A stretch of DNA of 64,000 nucleotides from Corynebacterium frankenforstense DSM 45800 (GTDB lineage: Bacteria; Actinomycetota; Actinomycetes; Mycobacteriales; Mycobacteriaceae), in the NCBI RefSeq assembly GCF_001941485.1, contig NZ_CP009247.1, positions 2,418,001 through 2,482,000 on the forward strand, given 5' to 3'. The notes beneath the pieces are model-generated. The model ran no database searches, was not told where the DNA came from, and was given only the letters and a program-made list of their open reading frames with translations. Below are positions 36,427 through 49,525 of this stretch, in pieces (positions within the stretch are counted from its first letter, which is position 1; the number at the start of each line of letters is the position of its first letter). The position numbers and the translations under genes are program-made.

Positions 36427-38814
36427 ATGTTCCACGCCTGGGGGCGTTTCGCCTACCGCCACCGTCGCCTCGTCCCGGTGGTCGTCGTCGCGCTCATCGC
36501 GCTGCTCTACCTGACCTTCGGCATGCGCCTGGACGACCGGCTCAGCCAGGAGGGCTGGGAGGACCCGGGCGCCGACTCGACCGTCGGCGCGCAGATCGAG
36601 CAGGAGACCTTCGGCCGCGACAACAGCGGCGACGTCATCCTGCTCTATTCGGCGGACCCGGGCGTGCTCTCCCGCGAAGACACCAGCTCCGAGATCGCCG
36701 GGCAGATCGAGCGGATCGAGTCGGCCCACCCCGACCAGATCGAGTCGGTGACCAGCTACTTCAACGGCCACAACCGGCAGCTGATCAACGAGGACGGCAC
36801 CGCCGCCTTCGCCGCGGTCTCCCTGCGCGGCGACGGCGAGCAGACCCTGAAGGACTTCCGCGCGATCGAGGACGACCTGCGCGGCCAGGACCTGCCCGAC
36901 GGCGTCGAGCTGCAGGTCGCGGGCGCGACCGCCGTGGCCGACTCGCTGGACGAGGGCATGGCCGCCGACGTCCAGCGCGCCGAGCTGGTCGCCCTGCCCG
37001 TGGTCGGCGTGCTGCTCATCCTCGTCTTCGGCTCCGTGGTCGCCGCCGCGATGCCGCTGATCGTCGGCGTGCTCTCCATCCTCGGCTCGCTGGGCGTGCT
37101 CTCCGCGCTCGCCGGCGTCGCCCAGGTCAACGTCTTCGCCCAGTCCGTGGTCACCCTGCTGGGCCTGGGCCTGGCCATCGACTACGGGCTGTTCATGGTC
37201 TCCCGCTTCCGCGAGGAGCTGGACAAGGGCCAGCCGGTGCCGCAGGCCGTGGCCACCACCACCGCCACCGCGGGGCAGACCGTGGTCTTCTCCGCGGGCA
37301 TGGTCGCCGTGGCCCTGTCGGGCCTGATGGTCTTCCCGCAGGCCTTCCTGAAGTCCGTGGCCTACGGCGCGATCTCCGCGGTCGGCCTGGCCGCGCTGCT
37401 CTCGGTGACCGTGCTGCCGGCGGTCTTCGGCATGATCGGCACCAACATCGACCGCCTGTCGGTGCGGCGCACCGCGCGCACGGCCCGCCGCCTCGAGGAC
37501 ACGGTCTGGTGGCGCCTGCCCGCCTGGGCGATGCGCCACGCCAAGGCCGTCACCGTCGGCGTGGCCGGCGTGCTCGTCGCGCTCGCGATCCCGGTCGTGG
37601 GCATCACCTTCGGCGGCATCAACGAGACCTATCTGCCGCCGGACAACGACACGCGCACCGCGCAGGCCGCCTTCGACGAGGAGTTCCCCCAGTTCCGCAC
37701 CGAGCCGGTCAAGCTCGTCGTCGACGGCGCCGACAACCGGCAGCTCGCCGAGGTCTACCGCCAGGCCGCCACCGTGCCGAACCTGACCGGGCGCTTCTCC
37801 GCCTCGCCGACCGAGGACGGCACCACCGTGCTCTCCGCCGGCGTGACCGACCGCTCCCACAACGAGCAGGTGGTCGACGACCTCCGCGCCATCGACGCCC
37901 CCGAGGGCGTGGACGTCTACGTCGCAGGCACCCCGGCGATGGAGATCGAGTCCATCGAGGCGCTCTTCGACAAGCTGCCCTGGATGGCGCTCTACATCGT
38001 CGCGGCGACCTTCCTGCTCATGGCGCTGGTCTTCGGTTCGCTGATCCTGCCGGCCAAGGCCGTGATCATGACGCTGCTGGGCCTGGGCGCCACGCTCGGC
38101 GTGCTGACGCTGATGTTCGTCGACGGCCTCGGCGGCGGCCTGTTCAACTTCACCCCGGGCCCGCTGATGAGCCCGGTGCTGGTGCTCATCATCGCCATCG
38201 TCTACGGCCTGTCCACCGACTACGAGGTCTTCCTCGTCTCCCGCATGGTCGAGGCCAGACACCGCGGCGAGACGACCGACACCTCGATCAAGTTCGGCAC
38301 CGCCCACACCGGCTCCATCATCACCGCCGCCGCGCTGATCATGATCGTCGTCGCCGGCGCCTTCGGCTTCTCCGAGATCGTGATGATGAAGTACATCGCC
38401 TTCGGCATGATCGCCGCGCTGCTGCTCGACGCCACCGTCATCCGCATGATGCTCGTGCCCGCCGTGATGCACCTGCTGCGCGAAGACAACTGGTGGGCGC
38501 CCGGCTGGGTGCGCGCCGTCTACCGCCGCATGGGCCACGGCGAGGCGGTGGCCTCCGAGCGCGCCGTCGCGCGTGAGGGCGGGGTCGACGGTGCCGACGG
38601 TGCCGCCGGGCGTGCCGGTGCGGCGTCGCGTGACGACGCCGCGGTGCTTGACGACGCCGCGCCCGTCGCCGAGGGCGGTGAGCTCGCCGTCTCCGCGGCC
38701 GTGCCGCGCGACTCCCACGAGGCCGCCCGCGGTGGGCGCACCACCGACCAGGACTCGAGCCTCGTGCCCTTCGACGAGCTGATGCGCCGCCTCGGCAAAG
38801 AGGACCGGGACTAG
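36427..38814 (+). CDS. cmpL1: MmpL-family trehalose monomycolate transporter CmpL1
   Basis: The 795-residue RND/MmpL protein has twelve predicted membrane helices and two outside porter domains. The proton-relay Asp-Tyr pairs appear as LGLAIDYGLFMVSRFREEL in helix 4 and IVYGLSTDYEVFLVSRM in helix 10, as in MmpL3, which flips or exports trehalose monomycolate for outer-membrane building. The C-terminal tail (about 705-795) is cytoplasmic and low complexity (DGADGAAGRAGAASRDDA). GGGAGGA precedes the ATG. Synteny with the mycolate cluster supports CmpL1 rather than another paralogue. Confidence 0.92.
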   Translation: MFHAWGRFAYRHRRLVPVVVVALIALLYLTFGMRLDDRLSQEGWEDPGADSTVGAQIEQETFGRDNSGDVILLYSADPGVLSREDTSSEIAGQIERIESAHPDQIESVTSYFNGHNRQLINEDGTAAFAAVSLRGDGEQTLKDFRAIEDDLRGQDLPDGVELQVAGATAVADSLDEGMAADVQRAELVALPVVGVLLILVFGSVVAAAMPLIVGVLSILGSLGVLSALAGVAQVNVFAQSVVTLLGLGLAIDYGLFMVSRFREELDKGQPVPQAVATTTATAGQTVVFSAGMVAVALSGLMVFPQAFLKSVAYGAISAVGLAALLSVTVLPAVFGMIGTNIDRLSVRRTARTARRLEDTVWWRLPAWAMRHAKAVTVGVAGVLVALAIPVVGITFGGINETYLPPDNDTRTAQAAFDEEFPQFRTEPVKLVVDGADNRQLAEVYRQAATVPNLTGRFSASPTEDGTTVLSAGVTDRSHNEQVVDDLRAIDAPEGVDVYVAGTPAMEIESIEALFDKLPWMALYIVAATFLLMALVFGSLILPAKAVIMTLLGLGATLGVLTLMFVDGLGGGLFNFTPGPLMSPVLVLIIAIVYGLSTDYEVFLVSRMVEARHRGETTDTSIKFGTAHTGSIITAAALIMIVVAGAFGFSEIVMMKYIAFGMIAALLLDATVIRMMLVPAVMHLLREDNWWAPGWVRAVYRRMGHGEAVASERAVAREGGVDGADGAAGRAGAASRDDAAVLDDAAPVAEGGELAVSAAVPRDSHEAARGGRTTDQDSSLVPFDELMRRLGKEDRD

Positions 38815-38817
38815 GGC

Positions 38818-39834
38818 GTGACCGCGGAGCACGGTCCGCTGCGGCTGCTGCGCAACCCGTGGGTGCGCGTGGCCGTCGTCGCGGTGCTGCTGGCCGCCCT
38901 GGCGTGGGCCCTGCAGTCGAACACCGACGTCATCGAGAAGGGCGTGCACCACGTGCGCGAGGCCGACGGGCGCTGGATCGCCCTCGGCGTGCTCGCCCTG
39001 GCCGCCGCCATGTACGCGCAGGCCGAGATGATGGTCGTCCTGCTGCGCGGGGCGGGCGTGCGCGTCGGCCGGTGGGCGGCGAACATGCTGGGCCTGGCCG
39101 CCAACGCCTGGTCGGCCTCCCTGCCGGGTGGGCCGGCCGTCTCCGCGACGATGATCTTCCTGCGCCAGAAGGCCTGGGGCGCGGGTTCCGTGGTCGCCGC
39201 CTGGTACCTGGTCATCTCCGGCGTGCTCGCCGGGGCGGGCATGGCGGTGCTCGGCCTGTGCGCGGTGCTCTTCCTCGACGCCTCGATCAACCCGCTGACG
39301 CTGATCAGCTCGATCGCGGTGCTCGTGGCGCTGGTGGCCGCCTTCCGCTGGCTCGGCCGGCACCCGCCGACCGTGCGGCGGTGGGTCGAGGCGGTGCTGC
39401 GGCGCTTCAACCGGCTCACCCGCGCGCCCGAGGACCGCTGGGTGGACAAGTTCCGCGAGCTGGTCGACCAGCTCGGCGCCGTCGACGTGCCGCCGCGCAC
39501 GCTGGGGCTGGCGCTCTTCTGGGCGATCGCGAACTGGTGCCTCGAGATCGCCTGCCTCTACGCCTGCCTGATCTCGGTCGGCGTCGAGCCGACGCTCTCC
39601 GGCACGGTGCTGGCCTTCCTGCTGGCCAAGCTCGTCGGCCAGGCGCAGATCACCCCGGGCGGGCTGGGCCCGGTCGACGTGGCGATGGTCTCGCTGCTGG
39701 TGCCGCTGGCCCAGATCCCCTCGGCCCCCGCGGTCGGCGGCGTCTTCGTCTTCCGCGCGCTCAGCTTCGTCGGCCTGGCCGCCGTGGGCTGGCTCGTCTT
39801 CTTCGTCGAGTGGCTGCTGGGCCGGCGCGACTGA
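38818..39834 (+). CDS. YbhN/UPF0104-type (lysylphosphatidylglycerol synthase TM-like) membrane protein
   Basis: The 338-residue protein has about eight membrane helices. It shows the family feature NAWSASLPGGPAVSATMIFLRQ, quoted as the PGG loop, and AKLVGQAQITPGGLGPVDVAM near the C terminus, typical of the flippase-like domain shared with LPG synthases. It probably moves or holds a polyprenyl- or phospholipid. GTG 38818 lies 3 nt after the cmpL1 stop, so the two are cotranscribed, suggesting a role in mycolate or glycolipid transport (inference). Confidence 0.82.
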   Translation: MTAEHGPLRLLRNPWVRVAVVAVLLAALAWALQSNTDVIEKGVHHVREADGRWIALGVLALAAAMYAQAEMMVVLLRGAGVRVGRWAANMLGLAANAWSASLPGGPAVSATMIFLRQKAWGAGSVVAAWYLVISGVLAGAGMAVLGLCAVLFLDASINPLTLISSIAVLVALVAAFRWLGRHPPTVRRWVEAVLRRFNRLTRAPEDRWVDKFRELVDQLGAVDVPPRTLGLALFWAIANWCLEIACLYACLISVGVEPTLSGTVLAFLLAKLVGQAQITPGGLGPVDVAMVSLLVPLAQIPSAPAVGGVFVFRALSFVGLAAVGWLVFFVEWLLGRRD

Positions 39835-39880
39835 GCTCCCGGACTTCCGGCGCGCGCCGCGGTGGGCCACAATGGAGGGC

Positions 39881-40258
39881 ATGCAGAAGAAGCTGAACCT
39901 CCCCGCCATCGCCGGGGACATCGTCGCGATCGGGGTCTTCGCGCTCCTGGCGCGCATCGCCCACCAGTCCGAGGACATGCCGCTGAGCTTCGCCGGCTGG
40001 CTGTCCACCCTGTGGCCCTTCGCCCTCGGCGTCGCGCTCGGCTGGGGCGTGGCCGCGCTGACCGGCCGCAACGGCCGGCGCGTGCGCTCCGGCGGGCTGA
40101 TGGTCTGGCTGATCACCGTCGTGTGCGGCCTGACCATCTGGGGCGTCAAGCACGGCGCGGTGCCGCACTGGTCCTTCATGATCGTCGCCGGCACCATGTC
40201 CGCGCTGCTCATGCTCGGCTGGCGCGGGGTCGCCTCCGCCGTCGAGGCGCGCCGCTAG
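39881..40258 (+). CDS. DUF3054 membrane protein
   Basis: The 125-residue protein has four membrane helices (IAGDIVAIGVFALLARIAH, LWPFALGVALGWGVAAL, GLMVWLITVVCGLTIWG, FMIVAGTMSALLMLGW), the pattern of DUF3054, a family common in actinobacteria and of unknown function. ATG 39881 has CACAAT exactly 7 nt upstream, suggesting a leaderless transcript; ATG 39872 is an alternative giving three more residues. It lies 46 bp after the YbhN-like gene. Confidence 0.8.
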   Translation: MQKKLNLPAIAGDIVAIGVFALLARIAHQSEDMPLSFAGWLSTLWPFALGVALGWGVAALTGRNGRRVRSGGLMVWLITVVCGLTIWGVKHGAVPHWSFMIVAGTMSALLMLGWRGVASAVEARR

Positions 40259-40335
40259 GCGGCGGCCCGGGCGCGCCGCAGAGGGGCACCGCCGAAGGGG
40301 CCGCCGAGGGGCACCGCCGAGGGGCGCCCGGGAAC

Positions 40336-40370
40336 GCAAAACCCGGCCCACGCGGGGGCGCGGACCGGGT
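40336..40370 (-). terminator. Terminator after the 28-residue peptide gene
   Basis: On the minus strand ACCCGG (40370-40365) pairs with CCGGGT (40346-40341), with further GC pairing inside, and is followed by TTTT. It lies 17 bp after the peptide stop, so the gene has its own terminator. Confidence 0.65.
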
Positions 40371-40386
40371 CATCGGGGGTTCAAGC

Positions 40387-40473
40387 TCAGCTGACCAGGT
40401 GGATGAGCTGGTTGAAGATCATGACGACGTAGTTGACGAGATCGCCGACGATGTCGATGGCGCTGCTGATCAC
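40387..40473 (-). CDS. 28-residue amphipathic peptide, PorA/PorH- or PSM-like in shape
   Basis: A GTG at 40473 has a perfect AGGAGG 6 nt upstream and opens 28 codons ending at TGA 40389-40387. The peptide reads MISSAIDIVGDLVNYV then VMIFNQLIHLVS. Polar residues fall at 4, 7, 11, 14, 21, 25 and 28, the 3/4 spacing of one helical face, and all other faces are hydrophobic. No signal peptide, cysteine or charge cluster is present. It is bounded by a likely -10 (TACGAT, 40590-40585), a ~100-nt leader and a terminator, so it looks like a stand-alone expressed gene. Short secreted helical porins (PorA, PorH) are known in corynebacteria, but I see no direct match. Confidence 0.65.
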   Translation of the reverse strand: MISSAIDIVGDLVNYVVMIFNQLIHLVS

Positions 40474-40584
40474 GGGGAGCCTCCTCGGGAAAAAACGGTG
40501 TTGCTTGGCTGGCGGGACCGGGCCGGGCCGGGCTCATAGAGACCGGCCCACCGGAGCGGCGCGGACCCGCGCCACAGATGCTCA

Positions 40585-40590
40585 ATCGTA
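40585..40590 (-). promoter_or_regulatory. Possible -10 of the small peptide gene
   Basis: On the minus strand TACGAT in the context GCGGATACGATTGAG stands out from very GC-rich surroundings about 110 bp upstream of the peptide start. No clear -35 is seen. The implied ~100-nt leader contains runs able to pair (GGGCCGG/CCGGCCC type). Confidence 0.35.
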
Positions 40591-40685
40591 TCCGCGGCGC
40601 GCGGCGTTACCCGGGCGACGCACCGAGGGGTCGTCACCGGGAGCGACACACCCGCCGCCGGGTCACCGCCGGGGCCGCCGGACGG

Positions 40686-42289
40686 TCACAGCGGCGAGAT
40701 CGTGTGCTTCTTCGGCAGGTCGCGGGTGTCCTTGTCCGCGAGCTGGCGCAGCGCCCGACGCAGGGCGATGCGCGTCTCGTGCGGCTGGATCATCGCGTCG
40801 AGGAAGCCGCGCTCAGCGGCGACGTACGGGCTGGTCATGTTCTGGTCGTAGAAGTCCATGAACATCTTCTTCATCATCTCCCGCTGCTCCGGCGGAGCCG
40901 CGGCGATGCGCTTGCCCTGGATCATCACGGCGGCGGCCGCCGAGCCCATCACGGCGATCTGCGCGGTCGGCCAGGCCAGGTTGATGTCGCCGGTGAGGTT
41001 CTTCGAGCCCATCACCGCGTACGCGCCGCCGTAGGCCTTGCGCACGATCAGCGCGACCTTCGGCACGGTCGCCTCGACCACGGCGAAGGCGAGCTTCGCG
41101 CCGCGGTGGATCAGACCGGCCTCCTCCTGGGCCACGCCCGGCAGGTAGCCCGGGGTGTCCACGACGAAGATCAGCGGGATGTTGTAGGCGTCGCAGATGC
41201 GGATGAAGCGCGCCCCCTTGTCCGCGGCGTCGGCGTCGATGCAGCCGGCGTACTGCAGCGGCTGGTTGGCCACGAAGCCGACGGTGCGGCCGTCGACACG
41301 CCCCAGCGCGCAGATCAGGTTCTGGGCGTAGCCCTCCTGGATCTCGATGAGCTCGTCGTCGTCACCGAGCTGCGCGAGCAGCTCCATCATGTCGTAGCCG
41401 GCGTTCGTGTCGTCCGGCATGAACGAGTCGAGCTCCACGGCGTCGGCGATCTCCTCGTCGGAGGGCGCCGGCAGCACGGGCGGGTCGTCGAAGCAGGTCG
41501 AGGGCAGGTGCGCGAGCAGGTCGCGGACCATCTCGAGGGCGTCCTCCTCGCTCTCGGCGACGAGCGAGACGTTGCCGTTCTGCTCCTGGCGCCGGGCGCC
41601 GCCGAGCTCGGCCGAGGAGATCGCCTCGCCGGTGACCTCCTTGATGACGGCCGGGCCGGTGACGTACATCTCGGTCTCGCCGTCGACGGCGATGACGAAG
41701 TCGGTGGTCACCGGGGCGTAGACGGCGCCGCCGGCGCACTTGCCCAGCATCACGGAGATCTGCGGGCTGCGCCCGGACAACGGCAGCTGACGCCGCGCGA
41801 TCTCCGAGTACATCGCCAGCGAGGTCACGGCGTCCTGGATGCGCGCGCCGCCGGAGTCCTGGATGCCGATGACCGGGCAGCCGATCTTGATGGCCATGTC
41901 CATCACCTCGACGACCTTGCGGCCGAAGGTGACGCCCACCGAGCCGCCGTAGACGGTCTTGTCGTGGGCGTAGACGGCCACGGGGCGACCGTCCACGCGG
42001 GCGAAGCCGGTGACCACGCCGTCGGAGTAGTAGGCGTCGGCTACCCCCGGGGTCTTGGCCAGGGCACCGATCTCGGTGAAGGAGCCCTCGTCGACGAGCG
42101 CGGCGATGCGCTGGCGCGGGGTGGTGCGCCCGGCCTCGTCACGCTTCGTGCGGGAGCGCTCGCTGCCCGGGTCCTGCGCCCGGGCCAGGCGGGCCTCCAG
42201 GTCGGCGATCTTGCCGGCCGTCGTGCTCAGGTCAGGTTCCGCGGCCGCGGCGGCCTCCGCCGCCTTCGCGGTGGACTCTGCGGACTCTG

Positions 42290-42293
<4 letters not shown>
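40686..42293 (-). CDS. accD3: Acyl-CoA carboxylase beta subunit AccD3
   Basis: The carboxyltransferase subunit works with a biotinylated alpha subunit and AccD2/AccE to carboxylate the C16-18 acyl-CoA that Pks13 condenses into corynomycolate. The 535-residue protein has both crotonase-like halves with oxyanion features IQDSGGARIQDAV and GKCAGGAVYAP in the first and FVVDTPGYLPGVAQE and AYGGAYAVMGSKNL in the second. A 25-residue Ala/Glu-rich head precedes KIADLEARL. GTG 42293 overlaps the pks13 stop as GTGA, so translation is coupled. The synteny is that of C. glutamicum accD3. Confidence 0.93.
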
Positions 42294-47296
<5,003 letters not shown>

Positions 47297-47482
47297 TGCG
47301 GCTCCGCCTCGGGCGTCATCCATTGAGCGGGTGTCCTCCGTGTCCGTCGTGTGTTGCGGGGTGGCCGGCGGGCCACGTCCTGATGTTGATGGTACTAACC
47401 CCCGTTATCGCACGGGCGCCCGGCGGCCGTGACATTCCGGAGGTCACGGGGCCGGGCGCCGGTGCGGTCGCGGGGTGCTTCC

Positions 47483-49336
47483 TCAGCCGCGCTCCGCGAG
47501 GTAGCGCTTGGCCGCCACGCGGCGGGCGATCTTGGCCGAGGAGCTGCGGGCGATGGTGCCCGGGTCCTGGACGCGCACCTCGGTGGGCGCCACGCCGTGG
47601 GTGTGGCTGACCGCGGCGCGGATGGCGCCCACGGCGGCGGCGTCGCCGGCCGGGTCGGCGTCGTCGGCGCGCTCGGCGAGCACGATGAGCTCCTCGACGT
47701 CCTCGCCGGGCACCGAGAAGGCCGCCACGGCGTCGGAGTTGACCTGGTCGGTGGCCGCGCCGACGGTGTACTCGATGTCCTGCGGGTAGTGGTTGCGGCC
47801 GGCGACGACGATGAGGTCCTTCAGGCGGCCGGTGATGTAGACCTCGCCGTCGACGACGGCACCGAGGTCGCCGGTGGCCATCCAGCCCCCGTCCGGGGCG
47901 TCGGCCGCGTGGCCGCCCTCGTCGAGGCGGCCGGCCAGGGTGTTGTCGAAGGTCGCGGCGGTGTCCTCCGGGCGGTCGAGGTAGCCGGCGGCGGCGTTCT
48001 CGCCGTGGGTCCACAGCTCGCCGATGGTGCCGTCGGCGACCTCGGTGCGGGTCTCCGGGTCCACGACGATCAGGCGCTGCGGCTCGACGACCTGACCGTT
48101 GGAGATGAAGGTCACGCCGTTCTCGGCGTCGCGGTCGACGAACTCGACGCGGCCCTCGGCCAGCGCGTCGCGGTCGAAGCGGGAGATGACCGGGCGCTCC
48201 GGGTTCTGCGGCGTGGTCACCAGCAGCGAGGCCTCGGCCAGGCCGTAGGAGGGACGCAGCACGCTGCGCTCCAGGCCGTAGGGGGTGAACGCCTCGATGA
48301 AGGACTCGATGGAGCGCTCAGTGACCGGCTCGGAGCCGACGATGATGCCGTCGAGCGCGCTCAGGTCGAGCGACTCGCCCTCGGCGGGCATGCCGTAGCG
48401 CACGGCCAGCTCCAGGGCGAAGTTCGGCACCACGGTGTAGACGTTGACGTCGCCGTCCTCGCCCTCGGTGCGGTCGAGCTGGCGGATCCAGCGGCCGGGG
48501 CGCTGGATGAAGTCGCGCGGGGCCATGATCTCGTTCTGCAGGCCGAGGATGGTCACGAAGGCGGCCAGGATGATGCCCATGTCGTGGTGCAGCGGGATCC
48601 AGGCGACCAGGCGCAGCGGGGTCTTCAGCTGGGCGGCGCGGAAGATCTGCAGCACGTTGGTCAGGATCGAGCGGTTGGTCAGCTGCACGCCGGCCGGGGT
48701 GCGCGTCGAACCGGAGGTGTACTGCAGGAAGGCGGGCAGGTCGACCGGGGCGGCCGGCGGCTCGATCCCGGCCGCGGCGGCGAGCTCGGCGGGGTTCTTC
48801 CAGGCCTCGGCCAGCGAGTCCGGCAGGGCGTCGACGGCGATGATGCGCGGGCGCTCCGGGCCGGGGCGGTCGGCGAAGTAGGCGCGCACGGCGCGCGCGG
48901 AGGCCGAGTTGGTCAGCACCACGGAGGGCTTCGAGTCGTCGAAGACGGCGCGCAGGTGCTCGGCGTGGCCCGGCTCGTTGGGGTCGTAGAGCGGCACGGG
49001 GATCAGGCCCGCGTAGAGGGCTCCCATGAAGGAGAAGATGTACTCCGGGGAGTTGCCGGCCAGGATGGCGACGCGGTCACCGGGGCCGGCGACCTGCTGG
49101 AGGCGCCCGGCGACGGCCTTGATGCGGGTGTTGACCTGGGTGCGGGTGTACTCGGTGGCGGTGCCCTCGAGGCTCTCCGAGAAGTCCCAGGCGCGCAGGA
49201 CCACGCGGTCCCCTCCCCCGGCCGCGACGTCGGCCTGGTAGAGCAGCTCGCCGAGTCCGGCCAGCGTCAGCTGCGGGACGAGGGTGATCTCACCCTTCTC
49301 GTTGAAGAACCGGCCCATTGCCGCGGTCAGATCCAT
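47483..49336 (-). CDS. fadD32: Long-chain fatty-acid-AMP ligase FadD32
   Basis: FadD32 adenylates the meromycolic chain and loads it on the N-terminal ACP of Pks13. The 617-residue protein has the adenylate-forming P-loop-like LQYTSGSTRTPAGV, the IPLHHDMGII motif and the acceptor motif GEVYITGRLKDLIVVAGRN, split around TGD (MATGDLG). FAAL-type insertion sequence is present between the large and small domains. ATG 49336 has AAGGAGA 6 nt upstream; a longer frame to 49489 is rejected. pks13 follows after 186 bp on the same strand. Confidence 0.94.
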   Translation of the reverse strand: MDLTAAMGRFFNEKGEITLVPQLTLAGLGELLYQADVAAGGGDRVVLRAWDFSESLEGTATEYTRTQVNTRIKAVAGRLQQVAGPGDRVAILAGNSPEYIFSFMGALYAGLIPVPLYDPNEPGHAEHLRAVFDDSKPSVVLTNSASARAVRAYFADRPGPERPRIIAVDALPDSLAEAWKNPAELAAAAGIEPPAAPVDLPAFLQYTSGSTRTPAGVQLTNRSILTNVLQIFRAAQLKTPLRLVAWIPLHHDMGIILAAFVTILGLQNEIMAPRDFIQRPGRWIRQLDRTEGEDGDVNVYTVVPNFALELAVRYGMPAEGESLDLSALDGIIVGSEPVTERSIESFIEAFTPYGLERSVLRPSYGLAEASLLVTTPQNPERPVISRFDRDALAEGRVEFVDRDAENGVTFISNGQVVEPQRLIVVDPETRTEVADGTIGELWTHGENAAAGYLDRPEDTAATFDNTLAGRLDEGGHAADAPDGGWMATGDLGAVVDGEVYITGRLKDLIVVAGRNHYPQDIEYTVGAATDQVNSDAVAAFSVPGEDVEELIVLAERADDADPAGDAAAVGAIRAAVSHTHGVAPTEVRVQDPGTIARSSSAKIARRVAAKRYLAERG

Positions 49337-49525
49337 CGCTTCTCCTTTTGGGCTCGTGGCCGAGCCCCTCGGTCGGTGTCGGGGTCCACGGGGCAGATCG
49401 CGCCCCTCGGCCGATTTATTACTTTGACGAAGAAAATAGCATGTGGCCCACCGCAATGTCCGGGAACCCCGGCGCCCGGCGCGTTCCATACCGGGCCGGG
49501 TTCAGCGCCCTTCCGGGCACCCGGG

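Follow-up and report, generated by a model that had tools for sequence, protein, structure and literature searches.

The open reading frame (ORF) at 40387-40473 of the window, by which we mean the whole stretch of 64,000 nucleotides of Corynebacterium frankenforstense DSM 45800 DNA that was analysed, is a real gene. On its evolutionary signature it is translated, and its product of 28 residues, MISSAIDIVGDLVNYVVMIFNQLIHLVS, is probably a small membrane component, as judged from sequence. Our preferred reading, held tentatively and at somewhat less than an even chance, is that this mini-protein would be a PorA-like peptide of the mycomembrane, mycoloylated near its N-terminus and assembling into cation-selective pores. 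Its main rival, close behind, would make the peptide an accessory of the inner membrane. Conservation in relatives bears out the preliminary description in so far as this is an authentic amphipathic mini-protein, easy to overlook and encoded in the mycolate locus.

The gene and its neighbourhood

The ORF, its coordinates and its 28-residue product had been given exactly in the preliminary description, as had the perfect AGGAGG before it; the start codon is GTG, not ATG (Table 1). The gene had also been credited with its own terminator and a likely promoter. The terminator stands in part: the hairpin directly behind the gene is strong (-35.4 kcal/mol, z -3.5, equal stability in 0 of 200 shuffles) and carries UUUU, but a strict terminator scan, which needs five Ts, does not call it. 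The promoter lacks support: a sigma-70 scan finds none for the mini-protein gene in this genome.

Table 1. Positions in the window of the mini-protein gene, its signals and the neighbouring genes
Feature	Position	Strand	Evidence and remarks
28-aa mini-protein gene	40387..40473	minus	ORF list; GTG start at 40473, stop 40387-40389
Shine-Dalgarno AGGAGG	40480..40485	minus	6 nt before GTG start codon
Terminator-like hairpin with UUUU	40337..40371	minus	Folding, z -3.5; directly behind mini-protein gene
accD3, acyl-CoA carboxylase subunit	40686..42293	minus	Pfam Carboxyl_trans 2.3e-148; directly upstream of mini-protein
pks13-type mycolate condensase	42290..47323	minus	ORF list; name from the C. 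glutamicum locus order given in PMC7775120
fadD32-type fatty acyl-AMP ligase	47483..49489	minus	NCBIfam FadD32_Coryne above cut-off
DUF3054 gene	39872..40258	plus	Pfam DUF3054 2.2e-25; convergent with mini-protein gene
Flippase-like integral membrane protein	38818..39834	plus	TIGR00374 above cut-off
MmpL3/CmpL1-like trehalose monomycolate exporter	36427..38814	plus	Best NCBIfam TrhMmycExpMmpL3 5.2e-221, below curated cut-off

In 116 of 126 relatives the mini-protein gene starts 12-222 bp behind the accD3 stop and shares its strand; nine loci have accD3 farther away (0.7-19 kb), and in one the fetched stretch showed no accD3. Among the 116 that directly follow accD3, 25 start no more than 40 bp from its stop codon, and there read-through from accD3 is the simpler source of a transcript. 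DUF3054 was found in 88 of the 126 loci, some stretches being too short to reach it, and it is always convergent. Seven loci have 5-19 kb between accD3 and the mini-protein gene. DUF3054 lies at most 281 bp from the peptide in five of these, 544 bp from it in one, and in the last the stretch did not show it. Since DUF3054 is still near the peptide in such far loci, the mini-protein gene is not merely a tail of accD3.

In five genomes (L140-L144) the separation from accD3 is 13-19 kb. The insert of L141, the one far locus typed in detail, consists mostly of polysaccharide-synthesis genes, including those for a sugar transferase, glycosyltransferases, a Wzy-like ligase and a polysaccharide exporter, and surface-polysaccharide clusters may use the gap between accD3 and DUF3054 as a site of integration. 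Elsewhere (L146:1293-6185) a frame of 1,631 residues with repeated DUF7507/DUF11 domains lies between accD3 and the mini-protein gene.

The neighbourhood is where an inner-membrane accessory finds most of what speaks for it. The amphipathic helix would then bind, and so tether or regulate, a partner at the membrane that takes part in making or exporting mycolates, namely the AccD3/Pks13/FadD32 complex, the MmpL3-like exporter, the flippase-like protein or DUF3054. The gene sits between condensation genes and exporter genes, the 25 loci with a start so close to accD3 fit such a role, and small membrane regulators of about 28 residues are known in bacteria. The seven far loci argue against it. 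We regard this reading as possible, with less confidence than we have in the pore.

Conservation and coding signature

A first tblastn-type search (E<=1) gave matches in 70 of 151 Corynebacterium genomes, and an accD3 match lay beside the peptide in 29 of 30 fetched loci, the window's own counted. The profile A1, made from 28 of these 30 (leaving out a 69-residue reading, L022, and L030, which is identical to L029), had hits at E<=0.1 in 126 of the 242 Corynebacterium genomes, one copy each apart from three weak second matches. Loci were fetched for all 126 genomes, and six of the 132 in the set are second loci of the same genomes. Conservation of the frame in close relatives had been named as a test in the preliminary description; frame, start and residues are kept in these 126 genomes. 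A start codon is present in 126 of 126 relatives (117 ATG, 7 TTG, 2 GTG). A Shine-Dalgarno-like site of at least four bases precedes it in 120 of the 126, own genome included, a count that leans upward because the choice of start favours those with such a site. Over 48 disjoint close pairs, pN is 0.075 and pS 0.249, with pN below pS in 45; by this comparison the family is under purifying selection.

The same data bear on a reading in which there would be no gene at all, only an RNA element or an ORF that arose by chance in the 3' untranslated region of accD3. The position of the ORF between accD3 and a terminator-like hairpin would suit it, but the coding signature, with the start codons and Shine-Dalgarno-like sites, makes it so very unlikely that we give it hardly any weight. 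An RNA element was rejected because no Rfam family reached its gathering score in 40100-40900, the sole match being sub-threshold (19.1 bits, gathering 70). A leader peptide or attenuator was rejected as well: the next downstream gene, DUF3054, is convergent, so the ORF cannot be its leader peptide.

The relatives yield 112 distinct peptides of this form, called form A, which are 26-39 residues long bar one 69-residue reading. Asp7 is present in all 112, and position 11 is either Asp (63) or Glu (49) without exception. Ser3 is found in 109, and 110 have Leu (103) or Ile (7) at position 2, directly before it. The polar face runs through positions 4-7-11-14-18-21-25; 106 peptides have Asn, Gly or Ser at position 14, position 18 is mostly Trp or Met, and Asn is commonest at position 21 (76 of 112). 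None of the 112 contains Cys, 60 have neither Lys nor Arg, and 102 are net negative.

Amphipathicity, as claimed earlier, is beyond chance. The window peptide has a helical moment of 0.467 against a shuffle mean of 0.138, with a moment as high in 0 of 20,000 shuffles, and all 104 distinct 22-residue cores exceed their shuffles (p<0.05, 500 shuffles each). The family mean hydrophobicity profile peaks at 100 degrees; the word helix is used here from periodicity alone. The polar positions first listed (4, 7, 11, 14, 21, 25, 28) are correct, but the statement that all else is hydrophobic was inexact, as Ser3, Gly10, Tyr15 and Gln22 of the window peptide are likewise not hydrophobic.

Public protein sets hold 85 proteins matching at E<=0.1. 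Most relatives are unnamed; those with a name are called hypothetical protein or similar (for example in C. mycetoides, C. auris, C. maris, C. hesseae, C. confusum, C. cystitidis), and one carries an apparently spurious transporter name.

Distribution and the form in C. glutamicum

Ten genomes have a diverged peptide of 25-27 residues, form B, in the same slot between accD3 and DUF3054, so that either form is found in 136 of the 242 Corynebacterium genomes (126 form A, 10 form B). The form-B search matched 12 of the 242 at E<=1, and the matches in G128 and G206, which look like chance, were dismissed. The form-B consensus is MTIIAxLxGIDIFSxxLxYxQGFLSY (alignment A3, nine rows, from nine of the ten loci; L165, with no ATG and no clear Shine-Dalgarno site, was left out). 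DUF3054 is present in all ten loci and the start is ATG in nine. Upstream, accD3 is no more than about 220 bp away in eight loci and about 0.7 kb away in one; in the tenth the stretch showed no accD3. Ser25, near the form-B end, is invariant. The N-terminal Leu-Ser-Ser is absent and the helical moment weaker (0.235 for the C. glutamicum peptide). Comparison of the two forms by hhalign gives a probability of 6% (P 0.006), which leaves their orthology unproven by profile and suggested only by position and a shared Ser-x-Ile-Asp-Ile element.

One of the form-B genomes, G178, is very probably C. glutamicum ATCC 13032. Behind its groEL2 are a PorH of 57 residues and a PorA of 45, which match NCBIfam PorH and PorA and have the published C. 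glutamicum sizes (PMC12632848). Its form-B ORF begins 57 bp after accD3 and has a long perfect hairpin behind it, as read by eye. In the gene list of PMC7775120, cg3176 and cg3177 are adjacent at this place with nothing between them.

The window's pks13-type part (43000-47323) has matches in 226 of the 242 genomes of the genus. A peptide is present in 136 of these 226, and neither form occurs in any of the 16 genomes without a Pks13 match (Fisher P 9e-7, a nominal value that is too strong as species are not independent). Three of the 16 are less than 90% complete, and two of the 16, G145 and G214, retain a strong AccD3 match, so that Pks13 may be missing there through assembly gaps. Given kinship and such gaps, the association is weak evidence. 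No copy was detected in 90 of the 226 Pks13-positive genomes, and the peptide therefore seems dispensable for making mycolates.

Across 301 genomes of the family (31 genera), the only matches outside the genus were three weak ones inside frames of 188-407 residues, taken as chance. Eighty titled accD3-type loci comprise 34 with form A, five with tentative diverged forms (recognised by pattern or weak profile score), three with form B and 38 with none, where none means nothing in the stretch downstream of accD3 (at most 5 kb, less in some), so that a displaced copy could escape. The 38 are 27 from Corynebacterium and 11 from the Rhodococcus group. An AccD3 tree of 73 rows (72 of the 80 named loci and the window) has the peptide missing from the Rhodococcus-group rows and from the basal corynebacterial clades (C. 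urealyticum, C. falsenii, C. glyciniphilum, C. xerosis). Within a single derived clade it is widespread and seems to have been lost several times, among others in the closest relatives of the window AccD3, and form B is one clade within this range. L074, L108, L109 and L111 have what may be highly diverged relatives about 0.8-2.5 kb behind accD3; these keep the Ser, Asp, Asp/Glu spacing and are too weak for membership.

Relation to known small proteins and proposed function

The mini-porin-like shape proposed in the preliminary description holds in so far as the peptide is tiny, acidic, helical and amphipathic, with a Leu-Ser-Ser element and no signal peptide by eye, but it falls outside the PorA and PorH families. 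PorA (NCBIfam NF033925; C. glutamicum PorA, PorACj, PorACur) is likewise tiny and amphipathic, with few Lys or Arg and a Leu-Ser element, Leu14-Ser15 being invariant in 11 of 11 rows. Ser15 of C. glutamicum PorA is the mycoloylated residue (PMC12632848), and in a modelled PorA-MytC complex it lies between two helices (PMC11927696), so that the mini-protein resembles a PorA reduced to the Ser and one helix. The mini-protein is, however, mostly shorter than the 37-45 residues of PorA and has two constrained acids in its hydrophobic helix. PorH (NCBIfam NF033938), mycoloylated at Ser56 in C. glutamicum (PMC12632848), is also small and acidic with an amphipathic stretch, and 7 of 11 rows end in Leu/Phe-Ser-Ser, comparable to the invariant Ser25 of form B, but its length is about 50-72 residues. 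With either family, profile similarity is lacking. Comparison with the PorA and PorH profiles by hhalign gives probabilities of 0.3-1.5%, and none of four mini-proteins (the window peptide, the form B of L169, L003 and L006) matches in an NCBIfam scan in which C. glutamicum PorA (83.5 bits) and PorH score above cut-off. The locus is different too: porH and porA are found behind groEL2, between it and ppk2 in published accounts, whereas the mini-protein gene is behind accD3. On these grounds, membership of the PorA/PorH families was ruled out.

The window genome itself (L162) has two ORFs of 72 residues behind groEL2, called porH- and porA-like from position and appearance; they are longer than the 57 and 45 residues of C. 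glutamicum and less hydrophobic. Behind groEL2 of L182 the porH/porA pair is followed by another PorH-like ORF, which suggests duplication of a porin gene.

Beyond the porins, Pfam, NCBIfam and PHROG give no weighty match for the mini-protein (two weak, chance-like hits, E 0.07-0.08), a PDB sequence search returned none at E<=10, and a full-text literature search met no description of the gene in the passages of main text consulted. AccE-type epsilon subunits of actinobacterial acyl-CoA carboxylases are also small and linked to a carboxylase gene, but they are larger than the mini-protein and soluble, and its hydrophobic, amphipathic character sets it apart from them by description. The likeness to phenol-soluble modulins in the preliminary description does not survive. 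These and delta-haemolysin are short amphipathic helices with no signal peptide, but they are Lys-containing secreted peptides, cationic or near-neutral, unlike a family that is acidic and mostly poor in Lys and Arg. A toxic or signalling peptide, whether a type I toxin, a secreted amphipathic peptide or a modulin-like factor, would be short, hydrophobic and amphipathic as the mini-protein is. We nevertheless consider it improbable, given the acidic charge, the usual single copy in a fixed chromosomal slot over many species, and the lack of a meaningful Pfam, PHROG or Rfam match. A type I toxin would have an antisense RNA antitoxin overlapping or beside it; in 40100-40900 no Rfam family attains its gathering score.

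Composition also weighs on the inner-membrane accessory. Typical inner-membrane or anionic-lipid-binding helices are unlike a net-negative mini-protein free of Lys and Arg, so the charge counts of form A speak against a helix of that type, and the constraint on Ser3 is left unexplained.

In the pore reading, the gene would be encoded and co-transcribed with the mycolate-condensation genes fadD32-pks13-accD3, and its product, like PorA and PorH, would leave the cytoplasm with no cleaved signal. A corynomycolate would be attached to Ser3, whose Leu/Ile-Ser-Ser/Thr setting resembles the mycoloylated Leu-Ser15 of PorA, and would anchor the N-terminus in the mycomembrane. Residues 5-25 would form one amphipathic helix, and several copies would pack with the polar face inward. 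Asp7 and Asp/Glu11 would then be acidic rings lining a small channel, and with two acids one turn apart the lumen would be cation-selective. Known mini-porins of 37 and 40 residues are described as forming homo-oligomeric channels, the latter having heptad amphipathic helices (PMC5944148, PMC3792995). Counting against a pore are the length of 28 residues, below the 37 of the shortest pore former named in PMC5944148, the lack of detectable PorA/PorH homology, the form B without Leu-Ser-Ser, and the three of 112 peptides in which Ser3 is missing. In the C. glutamicum O-mycoloylome, Table 1 has no entry recognisable as the mini-protein (PMC11066868). That study used trypsin (PMC11066868), and there is no tryptic site in 60 of the 112 distinct form-A peptides, the window's included, or in the C. 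glutamicum form-B peptide. So short a product with no such site would hardly be detected by trypsin-based proteomics, and the O-mycoloylome would miss a Lys/Arg-free peptide whose ORF is not in the database searched.

All this evidence up to the pore step would be shared by a peptide with a structural or assembly role that does not itself conduct and that would be mycoloylated and embedded in the surface like ProtX, a C. glutamicum mycomembrane protein linked to the cell wall (PMC12632848). Such a peptide would stabilise the membrane or help assemble other outer-membrane proteins. We think it unlikely, as the conserved polar face and the two constrained acids suggest a lumen or partner interface rather than a passive anchor.

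The wider proposal, that these peptides are an undescribed family of mycomembrane channel formers, mostly of 25-39 residues, encoded with the mycolate-condensation genes and present in C. glutamicum, is possible but rather doubtful. If it is true, many of these channel formers would fall below the 37 residues of the smallest pore former in the literature consulted, the synthesis of outer-membrane lipid would also supply a lipidated pore for the same membrane, and the C. glutamicum member could have been overlooked, having no Lys or Arg for trypsin. The mini-protein bears on the passage of solutes across the mycolate outer membrane and on how tiny signal-less proteins reach that membrane, and the positional counterpart in C. 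glutamicum makes both questions testable. Whatever its function, 136 of 242 Corynebacterium genomes carry a gene that, bar one apparently spurious name in public protein sets, is called hypothetical or left unnamed.
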